The position numbers were made by a program, and so were the translations under genes. Shown here piece by piece: positions 150 through 35,825 of a DNA stretch of 64,000 nucleotides; the stretch's first letter is position 1; every line of letters starts with the position of its first letter. The notes beneath the pieces are model-generated. The model did not search any database and had not been told where the DNA came from. It saw only the letters and a list, made by a program, of their open reading frames with translations. Source of the DNA: Candidatus Methanogaster sp. (GTDB taxonomy: Archaea; Halobacteriota; Methanosarcinia; Methanosarcinales; Methanogasteraceae); NCBI GenBank assembly GCA_003194445.1, contig PQXF01000007.1, positions 1-64,000 on the forward strand, read 5' to 3'.

Positions 150-208
150 GCTTGTATATACGAGGGTTTGTCTAATAAACTTTGCTACTTTATTTTTCGG
201 TAACGACT
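1..208 (-). mobile_element. Partial insertion sequence at left window edge (possibly ISAzo13-like), inserted in hsdR
   Basis: HsdR reading frame is conserved up to ...DKPMRGHGL (codons ending near 209) and then switches to non-HsdR sequence (SRYRKIK*). Minus-strand ORF 149->1 reads MDDHAQPTSWLKALSGADEVQARRFAAAKALELGWGGITKVVKLTGMSH, resembling the N-terminus of ISAzo13-type transposases. Element continues off the edge. Confidence 0.6.
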
Positions 209-2164
209 AAGTCCGTGACCGCGCATCGGTTTGTCGATATACATCGTGTGAAGGCTTGGAACATCAAACCCGGTAAGCCACATATCCCTGACGATAACCA
301 GCTTAAGCGAGTCGGATGGGTCTTTCATCCGGTCCCCAAGCACTCTACGCCGCTGTTTTGTTCGAATATGCTCCTGCCACCCCAGCGGATCGCCTGCAGA
401 GCCAGTCATGACGACTTTTACAAAACCATTATCATCGTCTTCGTGATACCACTCCGGCATCAACCGGACGATCTCATCATGAAGTTTTACACAGATACGC
501 CTGCTCATGCAGACGATCATGCCTTTGCCGTCAAGCACTTCGAGGCGGTTTTCAAAGTGATCCACGATATCACGGGCGATAGACTGTATGCGCGTCTCAC
601 TCCCGACGATTGCTTCAAGTCTTGCCCATTTACTCTTCAATTTTTCTTTCTCGTAAGTTTCCTCGCCTTCTGTCACTTCTTCGAATTCAGGATCGATTTT
701 TGGCTTTTCTTCCGGTTTTAATTCGAGTTTTGCCAATCTGCTTTCGTAATATATCCGCACCGTCACCTCGTCTTCCACAGCCTGCTCTATGTCATAGATA
801 TCGATATAATACCCAAATACTGTCGGAGTGCTTCTATCCTCCTTCTCTATCGGAGTTCCGGTAAAACCGATGAATGAAGCATTGGGCAGGGCGTCTCTCG
901 TATGCTTTGCGAAACCATCGATGAAATCGTACTGGCTCCGGTGCGCCTCATCAGCGATGACTGTGATATTTCTCCTTTCGGAAAGCAGGGGGAATCTGTC
1001 GCCTTTCTTTTCAGGAAGAAATTTCTGTATCGTTGTGAAGACAACACCGCCAGAGGCAACTTTGAGAAGATCTCGCAGATCGCCCCTCGATTTTGCCTGA
1101 ACTGGTTTTTGCCTGAGCAATTCATGACAACGGCTGAAAACGCCGAATAACTGATCATCCAAATCGTTTCTATCAGTTAATAGAACAACTGTTGGATTAT
1201 CCATGCTAAGTACGAGTTTTCCCGTGTAAAAAGCCATCGTAAGGCTCTTTCCAGAACCCTGTGTGTGCCAGATCACGCCGCAACGTCGGTCTCCTTCCGG
1301 GCTTGACGCCGCGGCTGTTGCCTCAACTGCCTTATTGACTGCATGATACTGGTGATAGGCAGCCAGTTTCTTTGAGATCCCCTGCTCCGTATCTTCAAAG
1401 ACCACAAAATGCCGTATCAGGTCGAGCAATACTTTTTTGCCAAGCATCCCTCTGAAGAGCACTTCAAGCTGGGGCACCGCCGATGGGGCAGTCTCTACTC
1501 CGTCGATTGTCTTCCACGGCATGAACCACTCCCTGCCAGACGTTATGGTTCCAGCCCGTGCCTCCGTTCCATCGCTTACGATCAGGATCTCGTTGTAATG
1601 GAATAGCGAAGGTATCTGAGCTTTGTAGGTCTCGAACTGGTTGAAAGCCGTCCAGATGGTTGCGTTCTCGTCGGCAGGGTTTTTGAGTTCGATTACGATT
1701 AGCGGGAGCCCGTTTATGAACAGGACTATGTCGGGTCGTCTGTTATTGTTGTTCTCGATTACGGTGAACTGGTTTACTGCCAGGAACTCGTTCTTTTCAG
1801 GATTTTCAAAATCAAGGAGCCAGACCTTACCCCATGCAATGCTGTCGTCGTCCCTGCGGTATTCGATGTCAACACCCTCTACTATCATCTTGTGGAAATT
1901 GTGGTTGTTGGTGATGAGATCCGGGCTTTCAATCCTCAGCACTTTTTTGATGGCTTCTTCCCTTGCAACGATCGGGATGTCGGGATTGAACCTGTCGATT
2001 GCATCTCTTAACCTTTCGACTAATATTACGTCAGAATAGGCATTCCTTTCGGGTGTTCTGCCGTCTGGGGTGATATCCGGACCGTGGAGTGTGGAGTAGC
2101 CTAAGTTCGAGAGGATCTCAAGTGCGACTTCTTCGACTTCGGATTCTGTTATTGCAGAGGTCAT
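185..2164 (-). pseudogene. hsdR: Type I restriction enzyme R subunit (HsdR), 3' truncated by IS
   Basis: N-terminal nuclease region ([19 protein letters not shown]), motif [36 protein letters not shown], ending [25 protein letters not shown]; downstream ~350 aa absent. Confidence 0.9.
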
Positions 2165-2551
2165 AACTGATGGATTCTATCAATTTCCGGTATTTTATCG
2201 AAGTCGCTGTCAAAGGAGAGTATTCTCTTGATCCTCTGTTTTTTCATTATCTCGACGGATGCCGCATCAGCCAGCGATATTGAGCCGTCGTACATAAGAA
2301 AGGTATCCACTGCTTTTGTGAGGATTCCCGCATCCATAAATGTTATTTTGCAGTTGTCTGTAAAATATTCATAAAGAATCTTGCCTGCCTTTCCGCCTTC
2401 CAGCGACCCCACCAGCGTGACGCTTTCACTTACGATAAGGTCGGATATCATCATCGGCTCGTTAATTTTTGGAACGAGTTTCAGTGCGTCTTTATGCCAC
2501 TGGTCTCTCTCTTGATAGGGCGATAAAGTATGAGGAGTCTGCGAAGATCAT
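2161..2551 (-). pseudogene. vapC: PIN-domain VapC-like toxin with frameshift in an AG-repeat tract
   Basis: ATG at 2551 gives MIFADSSYFIALSRER then shifts. Restoring one AG unit gives ...SRERDQWHKDALKLVPKINEPMMISDLIVSES...SLADAASVEIMKKQRIKRILSFDSDFDKIPEI, a PIN domain. Start overlaps the upstream AbrB-type gene (ATGA). Confidence 0.75.
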
Positions 2552-2790
2552 TTAAGTCCCTTCTGGATCACCTTCTTGGATTCAACCGCATCCCCTCCGG
2601 ATTTTACTATGCCTACTATATCCTGCAAGGTTCTTTTTTTTCTTGGCTGTACCAGTATTCCCTGCTCGGTATCTATCCATTCCATGACATCCCCTGGCAT
2701 TATTCCGTGGGCTTTTCTGATCTTTGCAGGTACAACGGTTTGGTATCCTTTTGAGATTACTGTTTCGCTAAGCATTTTATGTTCACACAA
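2548..2790 (-). CDS. vapB: AbrB/MazE-type antitoxin (VapB-like)
   Basis: SETVISKGYQTVVPAKIRKAHGIMPGDVMEW swapped-hairpin DNA-binding motif; ATGA overlap with PIN gene. Confidence 0.8.
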   Translation of the reverse strand: MCEHKMLSETVISKGYQTVVPAKIRKAHGIMPGDVMEWIDTEQGILVQPRKKRTLQDIVGIVKSGGDAVESKKVIQKGLK

Positions 2791-2861
2791 TTGTTTTTGT
2801 TTTCAAGATATTTAGTTGTTTGGGTGAGGTCGGGAGGAGGGGTGTTTCACGGGCGGGTATT

Positions 2862-3014
2862 CTATACAAAACTTTCGATATAAAGGTCTATGGCTTCTTT
2901 GATGTTCGCCTGCGCTTCTCCAAGGGTTTCTCCCTGAGAAGTCACGCCGAGTACGGGACATCTCGCAATGAAGAATTCGTCTTCTTTGTGATCGATATCA
3001 GGAATGTTCTCATA
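2862..3014 (-). pseudogene. HicB-like antitoxin remnant, frameshifted near start
   Basis: Manual translation: ...DEFFIARCPVLGVTSQGETLGEAQANIKEAIDLYIESFV*; the plausible ATG (3014, MRTFLIS...) is in a different frame. Confidence 0.6.
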
Positions 3015-3037
3015 TTAGCTTCCGGTTCTGTTGTGAA

Positions 3038-3346
3038 TCAATCCTTCACTTTTGGCTCTGATACTCGGACGCGCCCACTCTCGATGAGAATTTGTTGCAA
3101 ATCGTCTGTGGAGAGCGGACATTCGATTAAATCGAGCATTTGCTGTTTACTGGCAAGCCCAATCTGTTTGCGCCGTTCAGCCATCAGTCCGTCATTGAAT
3201 TCCTTCTCCCCATGACTTGTTCGAGTGCGAACTGATGTTTTTTTGCCATCAAGGTAGTACCAGAACAGGTTGTGGTGAGTCCTATCAGAAACAAAACCCT
3301 TCCTCTCGATTGCGGCAATGAATTTGGATGTAGGATAAACAGCCAT
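3038..3346 (-). CDS. HicA-like toxin candidate
   Basis: Small basic protein with TSKFIAAIERKGFVSDRTHHNLFWYYLDGKKTSVRTRTSHGEKE, HicA/YcfA-like layout; 2-nt spacing from upstream gene. Confidence 0.45.
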   Translation of the reverse strand: MAVYPTSKFIAAIERKGFVSDRTHHNLFWYYLDGKKTSVRTRTSHGEKEFNDGLMAERRKQIGLASKQQMLDLIECPLSTDDLQQILIESGRVRVSEPKVKD

Positions 3347-3348
3347 TT

Positions 3349-4422
3349 TTAGATCTCCTCGACTCTAACAGAATCTGCCTTGAGTAGATCACGAAGTTCA
3401 ATTGCGTCTGGTGTCAGTTTTTCATCCGGTTCATCTATCAGACCCTCGTATAGGAAAGCGAACTCTTCCCCAAGCTGGCGCAGTGCTTCCTGCCGATCCT
3501 CTGAAAACGCGTGTAAGCCATAGCGTGGGCACTCATACACCCACAGGTTATTGCGATATTCCGGAGAGCAGATTACGGGCTCCCTGAGGATGAAACGCCT
3601 GTCATTGAAGTGGAATGACGATGTCCGGAATGGCGAGAGGTCTATTGTTGAGACATCCAGCACTTCGTCGATCTGGCGAACCGCCCCGTCATCGCCCAAC
3701 TGCGCCCGCCCTTTAACTTCGACAATAGAGCCAGCAACGAGTTGTGTAATAGTTTCCTCTATCTCAGTAGGATAATAACACACAATTTCCCTCTGTTGGC
3801 GGCGGATAACGATATGTCGCCTACCTGCAAGCACCCGAATCTCCACAAGATCTCCGCTTATGGTTTGGACCTCTACAACATCATCGTCTTCGAATATCTG
3901 TTGAATGAAGCTTCGAGATTCGGAAGTAAGGCGAGCATAAGTCTTTCCGGATCCATTTCCCAGAGACACCCAGAAATCGTCAGTATCGCGGGGACAAAGT
4001 GCTTCAATAGACTTTATAGCACGAAGACGCGCCCCACCATCCGGCATGATCGAGACAAGATTTGAACTATCGCCCGCACTGATGGATACCGTTACCTGTC
4101 GCAGCGTATCAAGCGCACGCAATCCTTCATCAACTTCTGTTCCCGAGAGCGTGGTCTGCACCGATGATGGCGGCGGGATCTCTGCTACCACGGTAAGACT
4201 GCCTTTGCGGGACTCGCAGAAGAGCAATTCACACGATGCAATGATGCGCTTTGACCAGTTGCCACGCTGCGCTACCGGACCTCCTGACCGTGCCAGCGCC
4301 ACGTTGAAGAGTGTTTTCTGGAGTGCGTTTAGTTTACCGGCGAGTGCTGCAAGAGGGATTTTTCCATCCTCGACATCCGGACCGCCGATGGTTAGGGTTA
4401 GTTGTCTTTCGGTGTTGGGCAT
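3349..4422 (-). CDS. Uncharacterised protein with possible C-terminal HicB-like segment
   Basis: Complete 357-aa ORF; C-terminal NNLWVYECPRYGLHAFSEDRQEALRQLGEEFAFLYEGL resembles HicB-type partial RNase-H fold antitoxins; adjacent to HicA-like gene. Confidence 0.4.
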   Translation of the reverse strand: MPNTERQLTLTIGGPDVEDGKIPLAALAGKLNALQKTLFNVALARSGGPVAQRGNWSKRIIASCELLFCESRKGSLTVVAEIPPPSSVQTTLSGTEVDEGLRALDTLRQVTVSISAGDSSNLVSIMPDGGARLRAIKSIEALCPRDTDDFWVSLGNGSGKTYARLTSESRSFIQQIFEDDDVVEVQTISGDLVEIRVLAGRRHIVIRRQQREIVCYYPTEIEETITQLVAGSIVEVKGRAQLGDDGAVRQIDEVLDVSTIDLSPFRTSSFHFNDRRFILREPVICSPEYRNNLWVYECPRYGLHAFSEDRQEALRQLGEEFAFLYEGLIDEPDEKLTPDAIELRDLLKADSVRVEEI

Positions 4423-4529
4423 GTTTGGTCTCCTTTGTGGGTTGGTCGGGTTGTGTTTACGATATATTGCTTCTGATAGGGGATTTTGGGGTGGGTTCTT
4501 TGAGTTCGGACTCTGTGAATCTGGGCACG

Positions 4530-7500
4530 TTACCTCTGTTCACCTGATAAGAGTCCCCATACATTCCTGTAATCCGAGCCGGACAAATGAGAACCTTCTG
4601 GCCGGATATGTTTCCAGTCGTCTTCGTCCATGTTCTTCAAAAACTCTCTCGCTTCACGTACGCCGGCTGTATCAGCCGCTTGACCGAAGTTCGCTCTAAA
4701 CTCCCTGCCCAAGTTTTCAGCGACACTTCGCGGGGCGAAATTCATTCGCATCAGAACAGCCTCCTCAGTCTTCACTCCATGGTAGATCATCGCCGGCAGG
4801 GTATTGATCCTCCGACATTCACTCTCGGGAAGTGAATCGAAATCGACGCCCGACATCTGGCTTAATGCGGAAAGTCCCCATGTTCCAGTGTTAACGAGAT
4901 TTCGATAAATCGCTTTACAGGCATCAGTAATAGCTTTGGTTTCATTGCCTTCGAAAAACTGCCGCGCAATGCTCTGAATACTTTCTCCTGAAACCCATGC
5001 ATTGGTAATATTAGCGATTTGCTTCTTTTCAATGCCTTCGCCACCAATCTCTGTAAGGGATTTTAATTGCGGTACCTTTAGCATTACGCCAAATAAATCA
5101 GCCAATCCGCTTCCAGAACCAAATAAACTATCCGGGGTCCAGTCCGCTGCTGTAAGTTTTCGTTCCAACTGATTCAAGCCAGCAAGAGCTTTTCCTACAC
5201 CTTCAGGTGAAAAACCAGTCATGTCTGCCAGTTCTACCTGTCCCGGATTATCAGCCAGTTTTCTTGCGTAGTTTCTTGTAGCATCCAAAAGAGCATTTGC
5301 TTTTTCTTTACCGTCTTGGGAAGAACTTAACACCCCATAACCGTAGGTGTTTCTAAGTAATTGATCAGTATCAGCAAGAACGGCGTCGAGATTTTTCTTC
5401 TCATTCCACAGGTGAGCGACATAGCATCGGAAATCATCCCACTGCTCTTCCTGAATGACAGTACTAAGATCGTTGAGATTGCCCGCCTTTTCAAGCTCCT
5501 TCAACATGTTGACAAGACGAGATACCAGCTCTCCTGTTGTCTTGCTAACATATTCAACGATTTTTTCTGGATTTTTACCTGCTGCAAGACCTACCACACC
5601 GACACTATCATGCCCCATGCGTCCGGCACGACCTGATAGATTCCAAAAATCCCTTGGTTTCATTTCCTTGCCGTAAGGCAAAAATCGAGAAGATAAAAAG
5701 ACAGATGAGACTGGAAAGTTGATCCCTTGCGCTATTGTGGTGGTAGTGCAAAGAACACGCAGTTTTCCTTCCTCAGCCAACCATTCGATTAGCGCCCGAA
5801 CTTCATCGGAGAGTCCGGCATGATGTACACCGACACCACGGAAAAGCATTTCGACAAGTTCAAAATCAGGGCTGATTTCAGTCCTTAAAAATTTTTGTAC
5901 CAACTCAATTTCTGAACAATCCGAAGATATTGGTTCCAAAGTCTCACTAATCTTTCGCGCCATGGACCAAACTGAGTCAACGCGAGTCGCAACAGCAATA
6001 CTGGTTCCTCGTTCCGACATAATTTTCGCCATTGCCGCAGTTTCCAGACTTTGATTGAGTTTACTCTTTGGAATTTTTAGTGGCTTAACACTCCCAACCA
6101 AATGTTCACCTTCTAAATGGATTGTTTTTGGGGTCGTTGTTAGTGTCTGATATTTCAACCTCCAGCCTGCACGGACTGAATCATCTGGTTCTGCTTGGAA
6201 GATTCCTACGATGCGTTCGTTTGGCTTCCACGGTGTGGTGCCCATACTGATCGTGCGCCCAGCGTTCACATCGTGCGCCAGCCAACGAGCCAGTGTTTCC
6301 GCCTTCTCGACATAAGGCATCAGCAGCAAGAAATTGGCGGAACTCTGATACTCTTGCTTGATAGTTGCAAGCAAAAGCTCTATGCGTAGTCCCCGCGTCT
6401 CGTCTTCTATATTGTGTGCCTCATCCATCACAATCAAGGCAAGCGGACGCGATACTTTCTTGTTTCGGATCACTAACTGGAGCTTTTCCGGTGTGGCTAC
6501 AATAATATCAAACGTTCGTCCACCGTCATGACCTGACAGAAGGTCATCTTCAAATGTGTCAATCTCTACCGCACCGGTCAGTTGCTCGACCTGCACACCA
6601 ATGGGCTCAAAATCACGCCGCAAACGGCGAGTAATCTGTGCAGTCAAAGCGCGTGTTGGTGCTACATAAGCAACCCAGCCGCGAGGTTCGGCATCGAACT
6701 GATTTAGTGCCTGTAATATCCTGAACTGTGCAAGCAGTGTTTTTCCACCGGATGTTGGCATTTCAACCACAACCGCCGTGCTAGCTTGGTCCAGCAATCC
6801 CTGTTCCTGTAATGCGGTTCGCTGTGGAGGCAACAGTTCAAACAACGCTTGCTGTTTTGTGGCATTTTTAACAAATTGTGCCACTCGCGAATTGACCGCT
6901 CGGGCAACCCACCAGATTGACCCGGCTACCATCTGCCGGGAAGCGACGTGTAACCAGCGCAACAAAACTTCCAACTGGGCATCATGGGCAGCGGTGGCTG
7001 CCTCGATCCCCGATTCAAAGTGCTTGTCCAGTTGTGTGGCGATGTTTGATGGTTCACCTTGCAACATATAAACAGACAGAAGCTCAGTGCTCTTAGCCCA
7101 ATGGTATAATGCTACCAAGCGCAATGCCATGGCTCGGTCACCCGCATTGGAACCATTGTTCAGCACACCGGATTCATAGGTTTTCTGATCTTCCCGCAGT
7201 CCGATGATGGTGTAACGAATATTATCCAGATCATTCCACCCTTTTTTACGAAACAGACTGATCCAACACTCGAATAATTTGTATAACAGTCGCCGATCCC
7301 ATGGAACATCCGCCACCGAAGGCGCAGGTATGTTCTGCTCATTTTCGTTGTACCAGCGGCGTAGGTCTGACCAGCGATCCCCGCAATAAGCCAGTGCGGA
7401 AAGGTGAAGAATGTGGAAAATAGACTCCCCATTTTGTTCTGGCAGGTTGAAGAGGCGACGAATTTCAAACGCACGCCATGCGCCTGCCACACACTGCTGC

Positions 7501-7760
7501 CGGAGTTCATCATCTGTACTGGTCGGGTTCAAAACTGCACCCAATCCCTCGATGGCTGCCATTTCATAAGCCATTGCCAGACGGCGCAACAAATCAGAAT
7601 CATAGTCAGGCTCTGCAAAGTCGATCTGCATTTGTCTGCCAACTGCATGTTTGACCAAACGAGCATCAACTACTTTAAGACCTCTGTCACGTTCGACTTC
7701 TCCTACCGCCAGAACGGCCCAGTGATTATCTACTTTACGAAGGGAGTCGTTATTGATCAT
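4530..7760 (-). CDS. DEAH-box SF2 helicase, HamB-like (Hachiman defence)
   Basis: TSGGKTLLAQFRIL (motif I), LIVMDEAHNIED (motif II), GVGVHHAGLSDEVRALIEWLAEEGKLRVLCTTTTIAQGINFP, NLSGRAGRMGHDSVGVV (motif VI); overlaps the upstream HamA-like gene by 11 nt. Confidence 0.6.
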   Translation of the reverse strand: MINNDSLRKVDNHWAVLAVGEVERDRGLKVVDARLVKHAVGRQMQIDFAEPDYDSDLLRRLAMAYEMAAIEGLGAVLNPTSTDDELRQQCVAGAWRAFEIRRLFNLPEQNGESIFHILHLSALAYCGDRWSDLRRWYNENEQNIPAPSVADVPWDRRLLYKLFECWISLFRKKGWNDLDNIRYTIIGLREDQKTYESGVLNNGSNAGDRAMALRLVALYHWAKSTELLSVYMLQGEPSNIATQLDKHFESGIEAATAAHDAQLEVLLRWLHVASRQMVAGSIWWVARAVNSRVAQFVKNATKQQALFELLPPQRTALQEQGLLDQASTAVVVEMPTSGGKTLLAQFRILQALNQFDAEPRGWVAYVAPTRALTAQITRRLRRDFEPIGVQVEQLTGAVEIDTFEDDLLSGHDGGRTFDIIVATPEKLQLVIRNKKVSRPLALIVMDEAHNIEDETRGLRIELLLATIKQEYQSSANFLLLMPYVEKAETLARWLAHDVNAGRTISMGTTPWKPNERIVGIFQAEPDDSVRAGWRLKYQTLTTTPKTIHLEGEHLVGSVKPLKIPKSKLNQSLETAAMAKIMSERGTSIAVATRVDSVWSMARKISETLEPISSDCSEIELVQKFLRTEISPDFELVEMLFRGVGVHHAGLSDEVRALIEWLAEEGKLRVLCTTTTIAQGINFPVSSVFLSSRFLPYGKEMKPRDFWNLSGRAGRMGHDSVGVVGLAAGKNPEKIVEYVSKTTGELVSRLVNMLKELEKAGNLNDLSTVIQEEQWDDFRCYVAHLWNEKKNLDAVLADTDQLLRNTYGYGVLSSSQDGKEKANALLDATRNYARKLADNPGQVELADMTGFSPEGVGKALAGLNQLERKLTAADWTPDSLFGSGSGLADLFGVMLKVPQLKSLTEIGGEGIEKKQIANITNAWVSGESIQSIARQFFEGNETKAITDACKAIYRNLVNTGTWGLSALSQMSGVDFDSLPESECRRINTLPAMIYHGVKTEEAVLMRMNFAPRSVAENLGREFRANFGQAADTAGVREAREFLKNMDEDDWKHIRPEGSHLSGSDYRNVWGLLSGEQR

Positions 7761-8556
7761 CGTGTGCCACCCCCGCCCTCATCGCCAGCACCTTTTCACC
7801 CAGCGAACCGATACTGCCAGACGGCATATAAAGCGCCAGCAGTTCAATCGACATCGGTTGTGGGCAGTCTTCGCCTAATTTGCCTACTCGTGCACGTAAA
7901 TCGTCTTCATGCGGTTCTACATCGCGCAGAAGCACTCCGAATAGCCCGACATCTGCATTATCGGTATTGTAACGCTTAAAGGCATTGATAAACTTGTCCT
8001 TCCACGATGCGTTTACTGCACGATGCCACAGGTATTTTACCAGATCATCACGGATGCCGACCTTGTCCCGTAAATCCTCAAGCTGCTGCTTAAGACCGGT
8101 TCTGCCATACATCGCCCCAGGTGGGTATTTATTTTCGCTTGAAGTCTTGACTTCCCCAAAGGCAAAACGTTCAGTCACTCCATCGCAATGGATACCCACT
8201 AGATCAGCACCTGGTAAGCTCGAACCGGATTTCCGTTCATCTCGACCATCGGGCCACGGAAATGTGCAGGTGCGATGGTGCGTAAGATATGATTCAGCCA
8301 ATGCTTCACCCACACGCCATGACTCATGTTCCCGGTTGTTTTCGAGAACTCTTTTTACGCATTCTGGATTAAATTCCGTGCTGGGCAAACCCGATAATAT
8401 GTTTGTAAGATCAGCCGTCCCAGCGTCATCAAATATTACTTCAGCGACCGGACCAGCCAAAGCAGACTCCAGTTCACTTGTTGTGTAAGACATGCCGCAA
8501 CCAGTGATTGGCGCGGTACCAAGTGTGTATTCGACGGTTCCAGTTGCCAGCATCAT
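7750..8556 (-). CDS. HamA-like (DUF1837-type) nuclease effector
   Basis: 268 aa with GADLVGIHC...ERFAFGEVKTSSENKYPP, consistent with D...ExK PD-(D/E)xK-like active site; paired with SF2 helicase; ATGA overlap with hsdS stop. Confidence 0.5.
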   Translation of the reverse strand: MMLATGTVEYTLGTAPITGCGMSYTTSELESALAGPVAEVIFDDAGTADLTNILSGLPSTEFNPECVKRVLENNREHESWRVGEALAESYLTHHRTCTFPWPDGRDERKSGSSLPGADLVGIHCDGVTERFAFGEVKTSSENKYPPGAMYGRTGLKQQLEDLRDKVGIRDDLVKYLWHRAVNASWKDKFINAFKRYNTDNADVGLFGVLLRDVEPHEDDLRARVGKLGEDCPQPMSIELLALYMPSGSIGSLGEKVLAMRAGVAHDDQ

Positions 8557-9848
8557 TCAATGACCTCCACCAGTTTATCCACATCCGGTACGCGCAGTTC
8601 GCCGGACATCAGTTTTGGGAGGAGCGCATCGCGGATTGCTGCGATGGCACGGGATTGATGAATGTTTGAGACGATCATTTCAGTAATTAGATTGATTTTG
8701 ATGTTAAACGCTTCGACGACGTTTACAATAGGTACAATGATTTCGTATTGAGCAAGATCCTTCCAATTCGCTCTCGGCATTTTTGTACCAGTAGAGATTG
8801 TATCTGTGTATTGTATCACTTCATCGCTAGACATGTGACCAAGCACGAAACCAAACCACGACTGGTGTTTAGGCACAATAACGAGAATGTCTGTCGAACA
8901 TACCCCGTCGATTGCGGCGATGCCAACCTTATGAAAATATGGCCTTAACTTACCGAATGGTATCTCTCCACTCTGGAATTGGAACTTACCACTGGTTACG
9001 TCACCGACACACCCCCATTTTCCCAATGCAATACTCTTTCGTGGCATATGCTCAAGACCAACATACGATGTGTCTGCTAATATCGCTGAAGGCTTTACAC
9101 CACGTCGTGGGTTTTCAGCAATATCTCCTATTGTTCCAACCCCCCACCCCTCCGGCACCTCTCCCATCTCCGAATCCACCATCTCGCCGCCGCTGGATCT
9201 GTACGGCTTGCCGTCCTCGTTCGGGAACTCGAAGTCGACGAACCAGTGCTTGAAGATCGCCTGCCCGATCTGCTCGAGGGTCGCGTTCATCTGGCGGTTG
9301 AGCTCGATCTTGTCGTCTAAATCAGAAAGAATTTTTGCGATTGCTTTTTGTTCAGTAATTGGTGGAAGCGCAATTATCAGGCGATTAAAAACATCATTTT
9401 GCACCCTTTGTCTGCCCGATGTTCCCACCATTGATTTTATTGCCGTGTCTCTTACTTTAGGCAATCTCGAAAGATAATAAACGAATTCATTTGTTGTTTT
9501 AGCGTCCTTTCCAGAGAGTACTATAAATTCAGTCGAACCAAAACCAACTTCATCCTCGTTGAGTATATCGACAAAAGCAGTCTTGCCATTTTCCAAACAC
9601 GGAGTTATTCTTGCCATTAAAGTATCTCGGTTTTGAAATTTTGAGCCGCCCTTGAATTCTTTGACGAGATGGGTTTGGATTTTCTTATCAAATTCCTTTA
9701 AATCTGCCATAGAAACATATTTTGCTTCTGTTCCTTTCCTAAGGCTCCTCTTTGGATTCACATTCACTACATCAGAAAATATATTTGGATTCCACTCTAC
9801 CGGAATCCTTTCAATTCCAGTTTCTTTGAATCCTTGTTTTCGAATCAT
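8553..9848 (-). CDS. hsdS: Type I restriction enzyme S subunit (HsdS)
   Basis: Two half-TRDs, LPPITEQKAIAKILSDLDDKIELNRQMNATLEQIGQAIFKHWFVDFEFPNEDGKPYRSSGGEM central conserved region, IRDALLPKLMSGELRVPD end. Confidence 0.93.
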   Translation of the reverse strand: MIRKQGFKETGIERIPVEWNPNIFSDVVNVNPKRSLRKGTEAKYVSMADLKEFDKKIQTHLVKEFKGGSKFQNRDTLMARITPCLENGKTAFVDILNEDEVGFGSTEFIVLSGKDAKTTNEFVYYLSRLPKVRDTAIKSMVGTSGRQRVQNDVFNRLIIALPPITEQKAIAKILSDLDDKIELNRQMNATLEQIGQAIFKHWFVDFEFPNEDGKPYRSSGGEMVDSEMGEVPEGWGVGTIGDIAENPRRGVKPSAILADTSYVGLEHMPRKSIALGKWGCVGDVTSGKFQFQSGEIPFGKLRPYFHKVGIAAIDGVCSTDILVIVPKHQSWFGFVLGHMSSDEVIQYTDTISTGTKMPRANWKDLAQYEIIVPIVNVVEAFNIKINLITEMIVSNIHQSRAIAAIRDALLPKLMSGELRVPDVDKLVEVIE

Positions 9849-9898
9849 CTTTTTCCACCAAAAATAAACTTATCATCGATTTAATATTCATCTTCATC

Positions 9899-10438
9899 TT
9901 AGTCAGATTTTAATAACAAATATCCAATAGCTAATAATCCAAGAAACTTCAACGCTTGCCCTTGTTTTTTACTTTGAACATTACGAACGATGAATTGATA
10001 CAACCTATTCATTTCTGCTAATTGCTTTGTTGGGTCGTGGAAGTTTAGATAATTAACACCTTCCAACATACCCGTCGGTTTCGTAGAATCCAGTAAGATT
10101 GGAATGACATATTTATTACGCGACTTTGCTGCCCCTATCTCTTGCTGAACATAGTTTGACTCTACAGCAGATTCACTAAAAAATACAAGAAAAATATCCG
10201 CATCTTCAATCTTTTTGATAATTGTTTGATTTACTAACGAACCAGGCATAATACTTCTTTCTGCAAAAAATATATTCACACCTCGTATAGTTGAAATTTG
10301 ATTAACTAACGGTTGGATTTTAGCAGAATCATTCGTACTGTAACTTACAAAAATATTAAAATCTCCAGCTCCACCTTCTTTTTTCCATGCTTCTTTTTTT
10401 GTCAAAAATTGTGCATACCTATTTTCATCAGCACTCAT
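9899..10438 (-). CDS. TIR-domain protein with C-terminal transmembrane segment
   Basis: DFNIFVSYSTNDSAKIQPLVNQI...VNIFFAERSIMPGSLVNQTIIKKIEDADIFLVFFSESAVESNYVQQEIGAA; C-terminal ALKFLGLLAIGYLLL hydrophobic stretch. Confidence 0.85.
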   Translation of the reverse strand: MSADENRYAQFLTKKEAWKKEGGAGDFNIFVSYSTNDSAKIQPLVNQISTIRGVNIFFAERSIMPGSLVNQTIIKKIEDADIFLVFFSESAVESNYVQQEIGAAKSRNKYVIPILLDSTKPTGMLEGVNYLNFHDPTKQLAEMNRLYQFIVRNVQSKKQGQALKFLGLLAIGYLLLKSD

Positions 10439-10489
10439 TTATAACAACCTCCCGATCTCCGTCTCCTTGAACTCCGCACCAGAACCCAT
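10439..10489 (-). pseudogene. Possible remnant of an HsdS N-terminus immediately before the TIR gene
   Basis: Minus-strand MGSGAEFKETEIGRLL* (xFKETEIGRxP is a recurrent HsdS N-terminal motif), stop directly adjacent to TIR ATG. Confidence 0.4.
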
Positions 10490-10539
10490 CCCCCGCTTTC
10501 CCGCATCATCACCCGCTCCTATCCGGCTCGCCCGCCCCT

Positions 10540-11943
10540 TCACCTGCCGACCACCTCCCAGTGCCCACCCTTTGCCGGACCGATTCGTGTAATAATGTTG
10601 TTCTTTTTCAATTTCGCAATCTGCATCTCAATTGCCCGTGATGATACACCAAGCTTTTCTGCAATCTCTTTTGCACTGATCGATGGATTTTCTTTGATAA
10701 GCAGAATGATTTTCTCCGAAGTTTTCTCCGAAGTTTTCTCCGAACTTCTTCTAGGAACTTCTTCTGGGAACTGGTTCCCGGTAGTACCCACGAAAGCTCC
10801 CTCATACTCAGGGCTTCTGTAAAACACGGTGGAAAAACCGCCCCTTTCCTTCCTGAATTCCACCTTAACGTCATTCTCTGTGCATTCATCATATATCCGC
10901 CTGATGCCTGTACCCCACCGCTCAACATCCTTGCTAAAATAAAGGATCTCAGAGATTAGTGGGTTCCGTTGTACCGATTCGGCATCCCCGTGGATATAAT
11001 CCGATGGCTCAAACCTTGCAGTGAATTCCCCGGGATTGTATATCTTTATCCGGTCCTTGAATATCGCAACTTTGTTGCTCTCAGCCCTAAAATAATCCCT
11101 GTGGCACAATGAATTAACAAGCGCCTCCCTTAGGGCATCAACCGGTATCTCAGGAATCTCAACTCGTTTAAAATCCTTAAACTCCACCCTCCAGTTCATC
11201 CTCTCAGATATGTACAGCTCGCATTGTCTCAGGATGTCAAACAGGGTGCCCCTGAAGACCTTGATGTCAAGGAAAGTTGTCTTATTAGTACCCGCAAACA
11301 CCGCAACCTGAACCTCCAGAGGATTGTCCTCACAAAAGAGAACCTCAGCAGCATTCAAAACCCTGTTGTCCGAAATGAGCTTAAGCTTCCGTAATGTCGT
11401 CTTAACATCCTTAAAATCAAAATTGATCCGTTCCACAGACTGTCCCTTTCCAACATATCTTTTCAACAGAGCTTCGTCTATTTCTGAGACTTCGACGTCA
11501 GAATATTGATTATCCCAGCGCAATCCGGATTTATTTCTCATCAGGAACAAATTTTCAAGTTCCCTTGCAGATACTTTCCTATCATCATCGCCCACCCGCA
11601 TATACGCCCTGCCGTACGCGAAATATGGGGATTCGTTACCCTGAAATATAACGCGGACACAGTCCTTACCGTCTAATATAACCCTGCTGATCTCCGGATA
11701 TATCCTCGGCTCAATATTATCGGACACTGTCTTTGAAACATCCCGTATCGTCTGCTCGCCGACATCCTGCCCGACAACTGTTCCATCGTTCTTAATCCCG
11801 AAATATAGCTCACCCTTCCGGTGTTTATTAAGAATAGCAGCAATTGAAATGATGGCTTCCTTTAATTCCGATGTGGATTTCTTTAATTCCAATGTTTCAT
11901 TTTCTTCAAAATCCGTGTTTGAATCCATATTTTGCTGCCTCAA
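10540..11943 (-). CDS. AlbA_2 (Schlafen AlbA-type) domain transcriptional regulator/RecG-like protein
   Basis: ENETLELKKSTSELKEAIISIAAILNKHRKGELYFGIKNDGTVVGQDVG...; ALREALVNSLCHRDYF; C-terminal winged helix (SAKEIAEKLGVSSRAIEMQIAKLKKNNIITRIGPAKGGHWEV). Confidence 0.85.
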   Translation of the reverse strand: MRQQNMDSNTDFEENETLELKKSTSELKEAIISIAAILNKHRKGELYFGIKNDGTVVGQDVGEQTIRDVSKTVSDNIEPRIYPEISRVILDGKDCVRVIFQGNESPYFAYGRAYMRVGDDDRKVSARELENLFLMRNKSGLRWDNQYSDVEVSEIDEALLKRYVGKGQSVERINFDFKDVKTTLRKLKLISDNRVLNAAEVLFCEDNPLEVQVAVFAGTNKTTFLDIKVFRGTLFDILRQCELYISERMNWRVEFKDFKRVEIPEIPVDALREALVNSLCHRDYFRAESNKVAIFKDRIKIYNPGEFTARFEPSDYIHGDAESVQRNPLISEILYFSKDVERWGTGIRRIYDECTENDVKVEFRKERGGFSTVFYRSPEYEGAFVGTTGNQFPEEVPRRSSEKTSEKTSEKIILLIKENPSISAKEIAEKLGVSSRAIEMQIAKLKKNNIITRIGPAKGGHWEVVGR

Positions 11944-11962
11944 GATATTCTAATCTATTCCA

Positions 11963-12346
11963 TCATATCGCTTCTATCTCATAATTTCTCTTCAGTTCGT
12001 CAAGAAATCCCTTTTCCAGATAGATCATGATGAAATATTCCTTTGAATCAACGTCTATCCCTCGTATCCCTATTTCAAGCATATCTCTGACGACCAATTC
12101 ATCATATAAAATACCAAATAAATTCATATTTTTTCTAAATATAATCACGAAATAATCTTTCGCAGTCTCATCGATCAAATTCAATACCGTTTTAAAATCT
12201 TTATCCGATCTGATTCTGGCAAAACTAACACCGGCGTCTAACATGGTTACTTCAGTAAGGACTCCATTGTTATCTGCCCAACTCATGATGTTTCTAATAT
12301 TTGCCAGACGATCATCCTTCAGTTTATAAAATACATCTCGTCCCAT
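11963..12346 (-). CDS. Uncharacterised 127-aa protein between hsdM and AlbA_2 gene
   Basis: Complete ORF inside the island, same strand; no recognised family. Confidence 0.5.
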   Translation of the reverse strand: MGRDVFYKLKDDRLANIRNIMSWADNNGVLTEVTMLDAGVSFARIRSDKDFKTVLNLIDETAKDYFVIIFRKNMNLFGILYDELVVRDMLEIGIRGIDVDSKEYFIMIYLEKGFLDELKRNYEIEAI

Positions 12347-12404
12347 ATTATTTGCAACCAGTTTATAGTGTCTTTCCTATCCCAATTTTAAATGGATTAT
12401 CAAA

Positions 12405-13964
12405 TCAAAGTTCGTACCCAAGCCCCGCAAGATTCTTCCGTATATCCTCTTCCAATCCACTCGACTTCTCAAAATGCCCGGAAAGTTCCGTAGTAAGCCG
12501 TTTCATCTTCCCATCAAATGGCTCGCCATCATCTTCCACCGCCTCTGCGCCTACATACCGCCCCGGAGTCAGGATGTGTCCGTGTTTCCTGATCTCATCG
12601 AGCGTAACCGCTCTGCAGAACCCGGGCACGTCTTCATAGTCTCCGCATTCCCCACCTTCCCCGCGCCATGTGTGATATGTGGACGCTATCCTCCCGATCT
12701 CCTCATCGGTAAGCTCCTTGTGCCTCCGGTCAACCATAACGCCCATTTTCCGGGCATCGATAAACAGAACTTCGCCACTCCGGTCCCTGAACCTGTGGTT
12801 CTTCTTATCCCGCGTAACAAACCAGAGGCATGCAGGAATCTGTGTGTTGTAGAACAATTGACCCGGCAGAGCAACCATACAGTCAACCAGATCCGCTTCG
12901 ACAATCTTTTTCCGAATCTCCCCCTCCCCACCAGTGTTAGAAGACATAGAGCCGTTAGCGAGCACAAATCCGGTTATCCCTGTTGGCGACAGATGATATA
13001 TAAAATGCTCTACCCATGCAAAGTTGGCGTTTCCTGTAGGCGGGACTCCGAATTTCCACCGTACATCGTCTCGCAGAAGTTCGCCTTTCCAATCGCTGTC
13101 ATTAAAAGGCGGATTGGCAAGGATAAAATCTGCTTTCAAATCTTTGTGTGCATCGTTTAAGAAACTGCCAACATTATTCCACTGGACATTCGCATCGATC
13201 CCGCGAATCGCAAGGTTCATCTTGCAGAGCCGCCACGTTGTCTGGTTTGATTCCTGCCCGTAGACCGAGATATCACCAATTCTTCCGCCATGCGCCTTTA
13301 CGAATTTCTCACTCTGGACAAACATGCCGCCAGAACCGCAGCAGGGGTCAAAGACCCTGCCTTTATATGGCTCGATCATCTCAACAAGAACCCTGACAAT
13401 CGATCTGGGGGTGTAGAACTGCCCGCCCTTCTTCCCTTCCGCATCTGCGAACTGTCCAAGGAAGTATTCATAAACTCGCCCCAGGATGTCCTTTGATCTA
13501 CTTTCATAATCCCCAAGACCAATCGTTCCGATGAGGTCGATCAACTCCCCAAGCCTCTGTTTATCAAGGGCTGGTCTCGCATAATTTTTAGGCAGAACGC
13601 CTTTTAAGATAGGATTATCCTTTTCGACCGCATCCATCGCATCATCGATCAGTTTGCCGATATCAGGTTGTTTCGCAGCGTTCCGGAGGTGATCCCATCG
13701 AGCAACTCCTGGAACCCAGAAGACATTCTCTGCCCGGTATTCGTCAGGATCTTCCGGGTCGGCTCCAGCAGCAGAATCTCTGACTAAGAAGACGTGTTGC
13801 TCTTCGAAAGCGTCGGAAATATATTTAAGAAATATTAAACCGAGAACAACATGCTTGTATTCGGCAGCATCCATGTTGTTTCTCAGTTTATCTGCCGCCT
13901 GCCAGAGTTTCTCTTCAAAACCAAGATTTGCCCCGTTTGAACGCTTATCCTTAATTTTAACCAT
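12405..13964 (-). CDS. hsdM: Type I restriction-modification DNA methyltransferase M subunit
   Basis: [28 protein letters not shown] (NPPF), N-terminal [35 protein letters not shown]. Confidence 0.95.
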
Positions 13965-14104
13965 ATTTACACCTTGATACCGTACGTTTTAGTCTATTGT
14001 GCTTGCACAAATATAGGTTGTGGTTGCTTCCGCGGACGATTCCACGATTACACAGTCTGCCTAAAAATGCGGCATATTCGGATCACAGCGCATAGCCAAC
14101 TGCA

Positions 14105-14398
14105 CCCAGGCCCACATCCGCGATCATCGCGGTAAAGATCACTGCACGGCACAAAGCCGATGCGACATACCCAATCGTTGCCGCAGCGTCCATCATCGCC
14201 AAGGTGCAGCGGGATCGCGCGGTCAGGACGCTCGGGAGGGAAGTCGGGGATTTCGGCAGTGGGTATCCATCCGATCCAAAGACCATCCGGTTCATGCGGG
14301 AGTGGTTCCGAGAACACAAGAGTTTTCCGGAGTGGGTGCGGCATTCGTGGAAGACTACGAGCAACGTGGTAGCGGCGGCAGCGCAGAGAACGCTGTGA
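14105..14398 (+). pseudogene. rnhB: RNase HII C-terminal remnant (5' truncated)
   Basis: Manual translation: VKITARHKADATYPIVAAASIIAKVQRDRAVRTLGREVGDFGSGYPSDPKTIRFMREWFREHKSFPEWVRHSWKTT..., hallmark RNase HII C-terminal motifs; N-terminal catalytic half absent. Confidence 0.8.
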
Positions 14399-14530
14399 TC
14401 GGACGATCGATTGTTACGCGGTACCTTAGTATGGCGGGTGTGGCGGTCGGGGTGATGTCCCTAACCGAAGATCGAGACTTTACAATTTCTTCCGGTCGAG
14501 TTAAAAAATGTCCGGATCTGAACACCACGC

Positions 14531-14544: not shown

Positions 14545-14629
14545 GATACCAACAATCTTATCACCCCCTCCACACATTCATATACGGCAGCTCGGATATG
14601 AGTTGCAAAAAACAGTCAGGAGGGTAGCT

Positions 14630-16444
14630 ATGAACGGATATATGGAAAAGATTCTGGATGTAGATTTGAATTCCGGCAGACTCGCTGACCGATCTATCGA
14701 TGAAAAAACCGCACGTAAGTTCCTTGGAGGTAAGGGGCTCGGGCTTACGATCATTTATGACGAGCTAAAGCCCGATGTCGATGCGCTTGGTCCTGATAAC
14801 ATCATCGTCTTCGCGACAGGACCTGCAACAGGCACCAGTTTTCCGACCGGCGGCAGATACCATGTGATGGCGATGAAGTCCCCGCTCACAGGCTCCGTTG
14901 GAAGTGCGAACTCGGGCGGCAGATGGGGTCCTCTCTTAAAGGCAGCCGGGTACGATGCTGTTGTTGTGAGAGGTGCATCGGATGCGCCGGTGTACCTCAT
15001 GATAATCGATGGCGAGGCAGAACTGGTGGACGCTCCAAGATTATGGGGGAAGACTACATTCCAGGCGACCGATGAGATTGTGGCAGAGGCAGGACAGAAG
15101 GCATCGGTCGCATGCATCGGACCTGCCGGCGAGAATCTGGCAGCGATCTCGTGCATCGTCAATGACAACTACAGGGCAGCAGGCAGGACCGGCATGGGTG
15201 CTGTCATGGGTAGCAAGAAGTTAAAGGCGATCGCGGTATACGGCACCGGAAAGGCGACGGTTGCAAGACCGGATGAGATGAAGGAACAGGTAAAGAGCGC
15301 TCTACAGAAGCTAAATGAGAACCCGGTCACCGGCACTGGTGGAGGGCTTCAAACTTACGGAACAGCAGTGCTCGTCAATGCCTTAAACGAACAGGGTGCA
15401 TATCCTTCGCGGAACTTCCGGACCGGATATTTTCCTGATGCTGATAAGCAGAGTGGCGAAACGCTTGCTGAGAAGTATCTCACCGGAAAGAAGGCGTGTT
15501 GGGGCTGTCCGATCGGTTGCGGCAGGTCCACATCAGTCCCGGATGGTGCATTCAGCGTGACACGCGGAGAGGGACCGGAATACGAGACGATATTCGCATT
15601 CGGGTCGGACTGCGGAATAACAGAACTCGATGCGATCACGAAAGCCAACCACCTCTGCAACGAACTCGGGCTCGACACCATCTCCACCGGTGCGACGATC
15701 GCATGTGCAATGGAACTTGTGGAGAATGGAAATATCCCTGAATCGAGACTCCATGGCCTCAATCTGGCGTTTGGAAACGCAGGCGCGATGGTGGAAGCAG
15801 TATGGATGACCGCATACCGTGCAGGGATCGGTGATGACCTTGCTTGCGGATCGCGGTCTTTAGCAGAGAAATACGGGGCACCCGAACTATCGATGACCGT
15901 GAAAGGTCTTGAAATTCCTGCGTATGATCCGCGTGCCATACAGGGTATCGGTCTTAACTATGCGACCGCCAACCGCGGCGGCTGCCATGTGAGCGGCTAT
16001 ACAGTATCGCCAGAGGTTTTGGGGCTTCCTGAGAAGCTGGATCCATACACGACAGAAGGAAAAGCGCAGTGGGTCAAGACGTTTCAGGATTTCACATCGG
16101 TTGTCAACTCGTCAGTGGTCTGCCTCTTCAACACGTTCGCGCTTGGACTGCCCGATTACGCGGGAATGCTCTCATGCATCACAGGATGGGACATTGGCGA
16201 TCAGGAACTGCTGATGATCGGCGAGCGGGTGACCAACCTTGAGCGGCTGATCCTCAACCGGTACGGATTTGATGAGAAGGATGATACACTACCCAAGAGA
16301 CTCACGAGCGATCCGATGCCTGAGGGACCTGCCAGCGGTCGGGTATCGCAGCTCTCGACAATGCTTCCCGAATACTACGAACTCCGCGGATGGGAGCATG
16401 GCAAGCCCGGATCAGAGAAATTAAGGGAACTTGGACTTTCGTAG
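14630..16444 (+). CDS. Tungsten-dependent aldehyde:ferredoxin oxidoreductase family protein
   Basis: LGGKGLGLTIIYDEL, GGRWGPLLKAAGYDAVVVRG, CIGPAGENL, GRTGMGAVMGSKKLKAI, CWGCPIGC...; RBS AGGAGGG before ATG 14630. Confidence 0.93.
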   Translation: MNGYMEKILDVDLNSGRLADRSIDEKTARKFLGGKGLGLTIIYDELKPDVDALGPDNIIVFATGPATGTSFPTGGRYHVMAMKSPLTGSVGSANSGGRWGPLLKAAGYDAVVVRGASDAPVYLMIIDGEAELVDAPRLWGKTTFQATDEIVAEAGQKASVACIGPAGENLAAISCIVNDNYRAAGRTGMGAVMGSKKLKAIAVYGTGKATVARPDEMKEQVKSALQKLNENPVTGTGGGLQTYGTAVLVNALNEQGAYPSRNFRTGYFPDADKQSGETLAEKYLTGKKACWGCPIGCGRSTSVPDGAFSVTRGEGPEYETIFAFGSDCGITELDAITKANHLCNELGLDTISTGATIACAMELVENGNIPESRLHGLNLAFGNAGAMVEAVWMTAYRAGIGDDLACGSRSLAEKYGAPELSMTVKGLEIPAYDPRAIQGIGLNYATANRGGCHVSGYTVSPEVLGLPEKLDPYTTEGKAQWVKTFQDFTSVVNSSVVCLFNTFALGLPDYAGMLSCITGWDIGDQELLMIGERVTNLERLILNRYGFDEKDDTLPKRLTSDPMPEGPASGRVSQLSTMLPEYYELRGWEHGKPGSEKLRELGLS

Positions 16445-17185: not shown

Positions 17186-18034
17186 CTATTCACTATTTTC
17201 GCTACCTTTCGTCGTAATTTCCTCACATACTGGTTTCTGCTGGTATCCTGAGGGGGTCTGGTATGCCCAGCGGTACACGTTTCTAACCATAGTTTCGTTG
17301 GTGTGCAAATCCTCATCGATAACAAAATAGTACTTATCATACAATGTTGAGTTTGAATAACCGAACATTTCACACCCGTAACCCGGATGCCATGCTAATG
17401 ATAGTGTCGAGCAGTTAAATTCTTCTTTCTCGTATTCTATTGCATCATACCCACTCAGCCAATCTTTTGCTGTATCTGCCAAGGCATCCTGTTGTTCCTT
17501 TGACACGTTCCCTATGCGCTGTGCTATGTAGGCGGGTTGTGTTGCAAAAGGAACTTCCTGTATACGTAATACTCCTTTTCTGTCTTCAAATACATACGCA
17601 TCCACATACACACCAGGTGAAGCATAGATTGTCCACTTACCTGTCTTAACTGCTTTTATCGTTGCATTAAACTGATATCTCTTATCTTTTGAAAGGGTAC
17701 TCCGATTGGTGGGCAGATTATTTTCTACAAATACAAATCCTTCCGGAAGTACGATACCCTCGGACACATTTACTTTCAGATCTACCGACGGGGCAAGGAC
17801 GTACACGAAGCTCACGGTCTCGTTTAATACGGGTCCTTTTGGAAAACCAGAGAAATGAAGATTGGCTCTGATCGGGAGATGCGCTATGACCGAGTCGGTT
17901 ACACACTCTTCTTTATCACTCGTCAACTCCGGCACGAAGACCGTCAAAGACAAGACAGTAACGGCCAACGCTAATGTAACAAAAACTGCGATTAATACTA
18001 ACAATATTTTTATACTTCTATTCATAGTTTTCAC
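17186..18034 (-). CDS. Exported Ig-like paralogous protein, copy A
   Basis: Signal anchor MNRSIKILLVLIAVFVTLALAVTVL; shared core VNVSEGIVLPEGFVFVENNLPT...; shared C-terminus GCEMFGYSNSTLYDKYYFVIDEDLHTNETMVRNVYRWAYQTPSGYQQKPVCEEI. Confidence 0.75.
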   Translation of the reverse strand: MKTMNRSIKILLVLIAVFVTLALAVTVLSLTVFVPELTSDKEECVTDSVIAHLPIRANLHFSGFPKGPVLNETVSFVYVLAPSVDLKVNVSEGIVLPEGFVFVENNLPTNRSTLSKDKRYQFNATIKAVKTGKWTIYASPGVYVDAYVFEDRKGVLRIQEVPFATQPAYIAQRIGNVSKEQQDALADTAKDWLSGYDAIEYEKEEFNCSTLSLAWHPGYGCEMFGYSNSTLYDKYYFVIDEDLHTNETMVRNVYRWAYQTPSGYQQKPVCEEITTKGSENSE

Positions 18035-18851
18035 CTCCTTTCACCGTAATTTCTTCGCATACTGGTTTCTGATGGTATCTTGATGGAGTCTGGTATGCCC
18101 AGCGGTACACGTTTCTGATTTTGGTTTTGTTGGTGTGCTGATCTTCTTCGATGGCAAAATAATACTTGTCATACAGTTTCGAATTTGAATAACCCAACAT
18201 TTCACAACCATAGCACTTAATATTAACATTGTGGATCCTTGATGCAGGCCATGATATTATCGTGCAGTTAAATTCTTCTTTTTCAGATCGTTGTATATCA
18301 TGTTCATTCAGCCAATTTTTTGTTATATCCATGAAAATATCATGATGTTCCTGCGTTATATTCTCTTTAAGACGGGATCTTGTGATGGGTTCTTTAGCTT
18401 TCCAAACTTTTTGTATCCATACCGTCGACACCTCGCCTCCGAATGCAACATTTACATTTGCATATACGCCAGGTGAAGCATAAACCATCCAATTTCCAAT
18501 ATCAACTGTTTTTATCTTTGCACCATACCTATATTTCTTGCCTTTTTTAAGCGTGATCTGACCGATTGGCAGATTATTCTCCACGAAAACGATTCCTTCC
18601 GGAAGAATGAGACCTTCTGAAACGTTTACTTTCACATCCACCAATGGATTCAAGGTGTATGTGATATCTACAGTCCGATTTAATATTGGTTCGTCAGGAA
18701 AACCAAGATCAGCTCTGATCGGGATATGGGATATGACTTGGTCGGTTACGTACTCTTCCTTTTCATCCGCCAGACTCTGCACAAATATGGATAGCAGGAT
18801 GACGATAGAAATCACAACCAGTGCCAGTGATGCTTTTGTGATTTTATTCAT
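18018..18851 (-). CDS. Exported Ig-like paralogous protein, copy B
   Basis: MNKITKASLALVVISIVILLSIFVQS signal; same core and C-terminus; overlaps copy A start and dockerin-module stop. Confidence 0.75.
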   Translation of the reverse strand: MNKITKASLALVVISIVILLSIFVQSLADEKEEYVTDQVISHIPIRADLGFPDEPILNRTVDITYTLNPLVDVKVNVSEGLILPEGIVFVENNLPIGQITLKKGKKYRYGAKIKTVDIGNWMVYASPGVYANVNVAFGGEVSTVWIQKVWKAKEPITRSRLKENITQEHHDIFMDITKNWLNEHDIQRSEKEEFNCTIISWPASRIHNVNIKCYGCEMLGYSNSKLYDKYYFAIEEDQHTNKTKIRNVYRWAYQTPSRYHQKPVCEEITVKGGENYE

Positions 18852-19584
18852 CGTTCACCCCTTTCACCACAGCTTGCGAAACCATCAGCGCATCAAGTGA
18901 GGTAATCACCCCATCCGAATTCACATCTGCTGCAGGGTCACTGTTGGTGCCGCAGGCAGCCATTTGCAGAATAAGCAGCGCATCCGCAGCCGAGACTTTT
19001 CCATCGCGATTGACATCACCCTTCAAAGGCACATCTACCAACTCGCTGTGCGTATTCATCCCACCTGTGCCGTTGACGACGGTCAAAGTTGCATTATAGA
19101 CACCTGCCCGGTCATACGTATGGGTCGGATTTGTTGATGCATTATAGATCTCATCCGGCGTCCCATCGCCAAAGTTCCATCGCCATTCGGTGATATTATC
19201 GCCGAGAGACGGGTCTGTAAAGGATACATTGGTGCCGGACCCATGAACAGTGTATGAGAATAAAGCGTTCAGTGGAAGAGTTGCAAGTTCGGTTCTTGGT
19301 ATTCTCATATTTTTGTCAGGAACTACCTGTTTACTCATGGTAGAATTCGCCCATGATAGAACAAAGGATGCATTACCCATGGAATGATGATACCATATCG
19401 CAAAATCGTGCCAGCCTTTGCATAGACGGGTGCTGCTGTTTGCTTCTGCATGGTCGCTGAATATGCGGTTGGAAAATATGTCGGTGTGGTTGATCTTCAT
19501 ACCAACAGTTCCCTCTTCGCTCGCGACGTAGAACGTGTATGTGTCGTTGCCTGGTATGTACATCTGTCCGCTCCATACCATCAT
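18844..19584 (-). CDS. Truncated PA14-PKD-dockerin module, copy 1
   Basis: GNDTYTFYVASEEGTVGMKINHTDIFSN (PA14), FSYTVHGSGTNVSFTDPSLGDNITEWRWNFGDGTPDE...HTYDRAGVYNATLTV (PKD), GDVNRDGKVSAADALLILQMA...DVNSDGVITSLDALMVSQAV (dockerin). Confidence 0.75.
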   Translation of the reverse strand: MMVWSGQMYIPGNDTYTFYVASEEGTVGMKINHTDIFSNRIFSDHAEANSSTRLCKGWHDFAIWYHHSMGNASFVLSWANSTMSKQVVPDKNMRIPRTELATLPLNALFSYTVHGSGTNVSFTDPSLGDNITEWRWNFGDGTPDEIYNASTNPTHTYDRAGVYNATLTVVNGTGGMNTHSELVDVPLKGDVNRDGKVSAADALLILQMAACGTNSDPAADVNSDGVITSLDALMVSQAVVKGVNDE

Positions 19585-19589
19585 CCAGT

Positions 19590-19664
19590 CTGCACAAATA
19601 TAGCCAGCAGGATGACGATAAAAATCACAGCCAGCGTCAGTGATGCTTTTGCGATTTTATTCAT
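19590..19664 (-). pseudogene. Orphan signal-peptide segment fused out of frame to PA14 module copy 1
   Basis: Minus-strand ATG at 19664: MNKIAKASLTLAVIFIVILLAIFVQTG*, matching the signal sequence of the Ig-like paralogues; joins ...DWMMVWSGQMYIPGN in another frame. Confidence 0.7.
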
Positions 19665-19667
19665 TAC

Positions 19668-21285: not shown

Positions 21286-21374
21286 TTGTCAACTCCAGCA
21301 CGACTACAGCCGATGTCAATGCAACCAAAACAAGGAGCAGTACCAACAATATTTTTTATACTTCTATTCGCCAT
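21286..21374 (-). pseudogene. Orphan signal-peptide segment fused out of frame to PA14 module copy 2
   Basis: ATG 21374 MANRSIKNIV... carries A6 instead of the A5 in copy A (AGTATAAAAATATTG). Removing one A gives RSIKILLVLLLVLVALTSAVVVLELTSDDR, a copy-A-type signal sequence. Confidence 0.6.
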
Positions 21375-35518: not shown

Positions 35519-35825
35519 TTTGTTTTCACCTTGTTCGAGTTTAGCCCATCCGGGCAATACTCAATCAATGGTGTGCATATATATAATTATTCCAGAATTA
35601 TATCCAAATCTCGCCAGAATCATGCCCAAATTCAGCCCAAAATGGGATGCAGACCTTATATTCTAACGCAAGCGTCGACGACAGAGCCGTTACCACTGAG
35701 TGCGCAGGGGGTTGAACACGGTCGCGAAACTCTTGCGCCATCAGCGTTGCTTTGCAGACCGCTGTGATAAATCACTTTATTTTCAGACAATGTCCCCTAT
35801 AATCACGCCAAAATCATACCCAAAT

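Follow-up and report, generated by a model that had tools for sequence, protein, structure and literature searches.

A truncated rnhB duplicate at the edge of a Candidatus Methanogaster defence island may be one of two homology arms through which the island moves

The window analysed here, a stretch of 64,000 nucleotides, is part of contig C147 of a Candidatus Methanogaster (ANME-2c) MAG (G000), and its left end holds most of a defence island that closes, beyond the methyltransferase gene hsdM, on the remnants of two core genes (Table 1). The island amounts to ~15.2 kb plus one IS and encodes all three type I restriction-modification (RM) genes, hsdR, hsdS and hsdM (Pfam, PADLOC), together with a PDC-M23 candidate pair related to Hachiman helicases. 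Functionally, the type I system is probably restriction-deficient here, because a multi-copy IS with the target site duplication (TSD) TAAGT splits hsdR; hsdM and hsdS both seem whole. The Pfam and PADLOC scans of the island proteins turned up no integrase, the sequence in the IS gap being unassembled, and no tRNA was found; the sole IS found is internal to hsdR, and the island ends carry no known mobile-element machinery. Two island genes, at 3349-4422 and 3038-3346, have no Pfam or PADLOC match; the one that encodes 357 aa is kept in the relative G005 (96%), and in G004 and G002 a C-terminal remnant of 92 aa is left of it. Elsewhere in the window lie a direct repeat array at 17186-24961 (units of ~1.5-1.6 kb, 83-87% identical) with paired secreted-protein-like ORFs, and a second, distant type I hsdM at 30311-31840 (44% identical). 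In another genus of the family, the hsdM of locus L137 (G010:C79:1781-3330) is 89-94% identical to that of the window and rnhB just 74%, and because of this difference a cross-genus transfer of the G010 hsdM is probable.

Table 1. Features of the island and of its right-hand edge, in window coordinates.
Feature	Position	Strand	Evidence
End of the ~1.5-kb IS that splits the assembly between C89 and C147	1..207		Multi-copy ends at several contig ends; other end at C89:37103-37331
hsdR, N-terminal part, interrupted by the IS; remainder on C89 beside intact rnhB	185..2164	-	Pfam HSDR_N; TSD; uninterrupted hsdR in G001 and G002
Other cargo: PIN/MazE-like toxin-antitoxin, two genes without Pfam matches, PDC-M23B/A candidate defence pair (helicase and partner), hsdS, TIR, SLFN_AlbA_2, small ORF	2161..12346	-	Pfam, PADLOC
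hsdM, type I DNA methyltransferase, right-hand island gene	12405..13964	-	PF02384/PF12161; PADLOC MTase_I
Spacer between hsdM and the ubiA stub; G006 and G004 have a collinear hsdM-ubiA spacer	13965..14082		blastn
ubiA', 3' stub of a UbiA prenyltransferase gene, last ~25 codons	14083..14152	-	tblastn to ubiA residues 290-315; alignment to intact ubiA of G003/G004/G006
Joint, 9-bp microhomology common to ubiA (antisense) and rnhB (sense)	14141..14149		Alignment with the relatives' parental ubiA and rnhB
rnhB', 5'-truncated RNase HII gene duplicate, judged a pseudogene, about codons 132-218	14141..14398	+	PF01351; 261/264 bases identical to C89 rnhB
Whole direct repeat: rnhB 3' end and ~48 bp of 3' flank, forming the right-hand copy of the long target duplication	14141..14446	+	blastn against C89:35532-35838
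AOR-family gene (aldehyde ferredoxin oxidoreductase), native right neighbour of rnhB	14603..16444	+	PF01314/PF02730; directly after rnhB in island-free G003

Just past hsdM lies the plus-strand sequence in which the initial annotation, made from the letters of the window, had recognised only the C-terminus of RNase HII, and this reading holds: the peptide is in frame, and the RNase_HII profile PF01351 matches 14072-14359 (E 4e-22, 80 bits). The match takes in profile positions 102-199 of 199 only, so that the fragment, which comprises just the last ~85 residues, falls short of the full catalytic domain. Real rnhB homology spans 14141-14446, with the coding stop at 14398, and the rnhB part was refined accordingly; the segment 14083-14140 was rejected as rnhB, since it is the antisense 3' end of the UbiA prenyltransferase gene. 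Because the fragment has no N-terminal DEAGKGP active-site motif and no in-frame start upstream of the GTG at 14204, we judged it by inspection to be a non-functional pseudogene fragment.

The genome does contain another rnhB. A profile search of G000 for RNase HII returned three places, namely the window fragment, a separate and different RNase HII-like ORF on C114, and an intact rnhB on C89 (C89:35133-35789, profile match 35157-35750) whose C-terminal peptide is the same as that of the fragment. The repeat is 95.1% identical to its C89 counterpart over 307 bp (blastn); within its core (14141-14404) only 3 of 264 bases differ from the intact gene (98.9% identical), and the flank matches less well. 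Judged on the 261 identical bases, chance likeness is excluded, and loss of rnhB function was rejected because of the intact copy.

C89 terminates ~1.5 kb past the rnhB stop, within the C-terminal part of hsdR, and C147 starts with the N-terminal part of the same gene. At hsdR, both contigs end in the ends of the multi-copy IS, which recur at several contig ends; C169 carries both IS ends ~1.5 kb apart and in the expected orientation, TAAGT stands as a 5-bp direct repeat in the two hsdR halves where each meets the IS, and in G001 and G002 hsdR runs uninterrupted, without the IS, through the same point. Because of the IS ends, the TSD and the continuous hsdR of these relatives, we infer that C89 and C147 abut across one IS copy inside hsdR; the genomes compared are fragmented MAGs throughout, and the two contigs are joined in this way rather than by a single read. 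The order in G000 would then be hdr genes, full rnhB, hsdR, island, hsdM, ubiA 3' stub, rnhB 3' stub and AOR. The fragment is a boundary scar of the island beyond hsdM, as initially proposed. The accompanying suggestion of an island insertion or deletion through rnhB stands as regards insertion but not as regards a gene cut or lost, since rnhB is present in intact form at the opposite edge of the island, and what lies here is a direct duplicate of it.

A relative without the island, G003, has a single, intact rnhB directly beside AOR; homology to the window restarts at 14476, after a small extra deletion that follows the rnhB stop, a close hsdM was not found in this genome, and ubiA lies directly beside PAN (proteasome-activating ATPase). 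Since G003 has this single rnhB next to AOR, the island would have been inserted with a duplication of ~306 bp of rnhB and with rnhB function kept. On our reading, the rnhB/AOR junction either received the island or lost it, with the duplication accompanying the island, and no relative was found to have the truncation without adjacent island genes, the remnants of G001 and G005 both lying beside such genes. The use of a gene 3' end, the restored target gene and the far-side direct repeat are also what a classical genomic island would leave after site-specific integration into the rnhB 3' end, but a repeat of ~306 bp is far above the typical length of a short att core, the right end holds a housekeeping-gene stub, and the scanned proteins and the search for tRNAs yielded neither integrase nor tRNA, all of which makes such integration very improbable. 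Just upstream of AOR, the interval 14476-14514 is a reused breakpoint, at which G003, G004/G006 and G007 join different sequences.

Structurally, the right end of the island is composite. In G000 and G001, the alignment shows the ubiA end changing to rnhB inside ACTGCACGG, which is present in both parental genes. Across 17 family genomes searched for this pattern, the exact joint was found in G000 and G001, both times at rnhB/AOR, and a decayed variant, different at 3 of 33 bases, was found in G005 beside PAN and not AOR, so that the same joint occupies more than one homologous site. The G005 joint is placed between PAN and the island gene c23: on one side, 326 bp are collinear with the PAN-ubiA junction of G003 and then pass into rnhB at the same switch point; on the other, after an internal deletion, there follow a G004-like rnhB-to-island edge, c23, a DUF3644 gene and ubiA, of which the last 88 codons are on the contig before the gene runs off its end. 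The rnhB/AOR locus of G005 is unassembled.

In G004 and G006, the order is rnhB, island and intact ubiA, with the same spacer after hsdM and no rnhB stub (blastn: G006, 93.2% over window 11864-14152; G004, 89.9% over window 10023-14152). The left island junction of G000 is common to G006; the left edges differ in that G004 departs from the G006/G000 sequence ~10 bp past the rnhB stop. In a chromosome of the G004/G006 type, two copies of ACTGCACGG flank the island in direct orientation. That the whole arrangement is an assembly or binning artefact might be entertained for fragmented MAGs with contig ends within a multi-copy IS, but the joint recurs in the independent assemblies of G001 and G005, the hsdM-ubiA spacer is common to G006 and G004, and the site is empty in G003, and we hold an artefact to be scarcely credible.

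From these structures, we posit, as the simplest model, an integrase-free defence island with two homology arms, of which the rnhB fragment is probably one; the island would enter as a circle by a single crossover at either site. A segment made up of the rnhB 3' end, the island and the ubiA 3' end would have been joined end to end once, probably when a circle formed across the direct repeats of ACTGCACGG in a rnhB-island-ubiA chromosome of the G004/G006 order; equally possibly, the joint would have arisen in a first illegitimate insertion that was followed by a later pop-out and move. Entry into chromosomes would then be by single-crossover homologous recombination. Through the rnhB arm, it would give rnhB - island - ubiA'.rnhB' - AOR, the arrangement of G000 and G001; through the ubiA arm, it would give ubiA - island - rnhB'.ubiA' - PAN, that of G005. 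At every entry, the host gene would stay whole and a truncated duplicate would be left at the far edge, and recombination between the repeats would take the island out cleanly. Because one closed segment could enter through either arm, one joint would explain two loci. The relatives thus compared suggest that the island shuttles between two chromosomal sites, using the gene ends it carries for homologous recombination, the circle itself being deduced from genome structures alone. The broader proposition, that ANME-2c defence islands move as integrase-free circles with rnhB and ubiA 3' ends as homology arms and are inserted or removed at either site by host recombination, with the target gene unharmed, we put at about even chances.

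Two other routes to the joint have to be weighed against this. In one, a single illegitimate event with long target duplication would have joined the island and a piece of ubiA to rnhB-AOR through template switching, either microhomology-mediated or replicative, in which ~306 bp of rnhB were copied, and later moves would be unrelated. Long target duplications of variable length are reported for RM units whose movement involves no mobile element (PMC3874152, PMC3031569) and the joint does contain a 9-bp microhomology, but the same joint at ubiA/PAN in G005 is not explained by such an event itself, to which we give a modest chance. In the other, linear donor DNA of the G004/G006 type would have entered by homology-facilitated illegitimate recombination, with a homologous crossover in rnhB on the left and ubiA-rnhB microhomology joining on the right. 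A donor order of rnhB, island and ubiA does exist and the left junction is common to G006; this route nevertheless predicts the joint at the rnhB site only, against the ubiA/PAN joint of G005, and would need later conversion, as both rnhB copies of G000 are G000-like, so that we think it rather unlikely. The 3 of 33 mismatches of the G005 joint possibly reflect a repeated use of the same microhomology.

Movement through two arms explains the arrangement of G004 and G006 only in part. In G006 (L261 = C134, L128 = C146), AOR comes directly after mgsA, and PAN adjoins the stretch found behind mgsA in G000, G001 and G003; G004 has the mgsA-AOR junction too. A simple reciprocal inversion between rnhB/AOR and ubiA/PAN is insufficient, since the mgsA-AOR and PAN junctions need three breakpoints; the three-breakpoint rearrangement read in G006 takes in both island sites, and the G004/G006 rearrangement (mgsA-AOR and PAN-X junctions) needs further steps outside the two-arm model. 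In G001, a 5' remnant of hsdR adjoins PAN, which is consistent with an earlier residence of the island there.

Evolutionarily, the species tree groups G000 with G002 and G004 with G006 firmly and leaves G001 and G003 without firm placement; identities of island and core are both mostly about 90-96% in pairwise genome comparisons, and the right edge of the island is unassembled in G002. Because the joint is common to G000 and G001, while the sister of G000 is G002, we take the duplication to be old unless it was transferred. The two rnhB copies of G000 share ten private bases that occur in none of five relatives and differ at three, whereas those of G001 agree at only 92 of 112 aligned bases, and the remnant appears to decay by deletion in G001 and G005. 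A recent independent duplication in G000 was disfavoured, because in G001 the joint is identical and the sequence around it has diverged. The private bases shared in G000, set against the diverged copies of G001, suggest gene conversion from the intact rnhB within the G000 lineage as the simplest cause of the near-identity of the G000 remnant; gene conversion as such is documented for archaea (PMC8223754, PMC4632066).

Insertion with long target duplication, often with rearrangements, is described for RM gene complexes (by Nobusato et al. 2000 and Furuta et al. 2010, cited in PMC3031569 and PMC3874152). As there, RM genes are inserted here without an integrase or flanking IS, the target gene is duplicated directly over a long stretch (order 100 bp or more there, ~306 bp here), and a relative has an empty site, with ties to other rearrangements. 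RM genes, a long duplication, a single target in a relative and the lack of mobile-element machinery at the ends were all found in the present case, which we read as having the tested defining features of that form and as adding a second gene end and a second site. Here, by difference, the insert is a multi-system island of ~15 kb in an ANME archaeon, it carries a ubiA end, and the same joint occurs also at the ubiA locus. Hotspots without mobile elements are described whose content is renewed by recombination in the core genes on either side (2017, PMC5635113); they share with the present island the turnover of defence cargo between core genes without an integrase, for which host recombination is enough; there, however, a double crossover swaps cargo at one site, whereas the present island would enter one or the other of two sites by a single crossover and leave truncated gene-end duplicates. 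Circular intermediates with gene segments integrate by homologous recombination, for instance in the case of cfr(C) in Campylobacter coli (PMC10770853), where a circle likewise enters a new replicon through the gene segments it holds; that circle was studied experimentally, in contrast to the one proposed here. Our literature search found nothing joining ANME-2c with defence and restriction-modification. A structure of the same kind was seen elsewhere in G000 at L130, where two direct copies of the metG 5' end, each ~0.6 kb long (C158:2848-3454 and 4394-5017, 92.6%), enclose a ~0.94-kb insert that contains a NYN-domain gene; in G001, G003, G004 and G006, metG lies beside its neighbour and the insert is absent.

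Many defence islands have no visible mobility gene, and how such islands move is an open question. The structures described here suggest a route that would need host recombination and two captured gene ends alone, and a single genus shows the empty, the occupied and the decayed state. Where a core gene is cut short at the edge of an island, it may be a duplicate and not a loss, and gene conversion can give an old scar a recent look.
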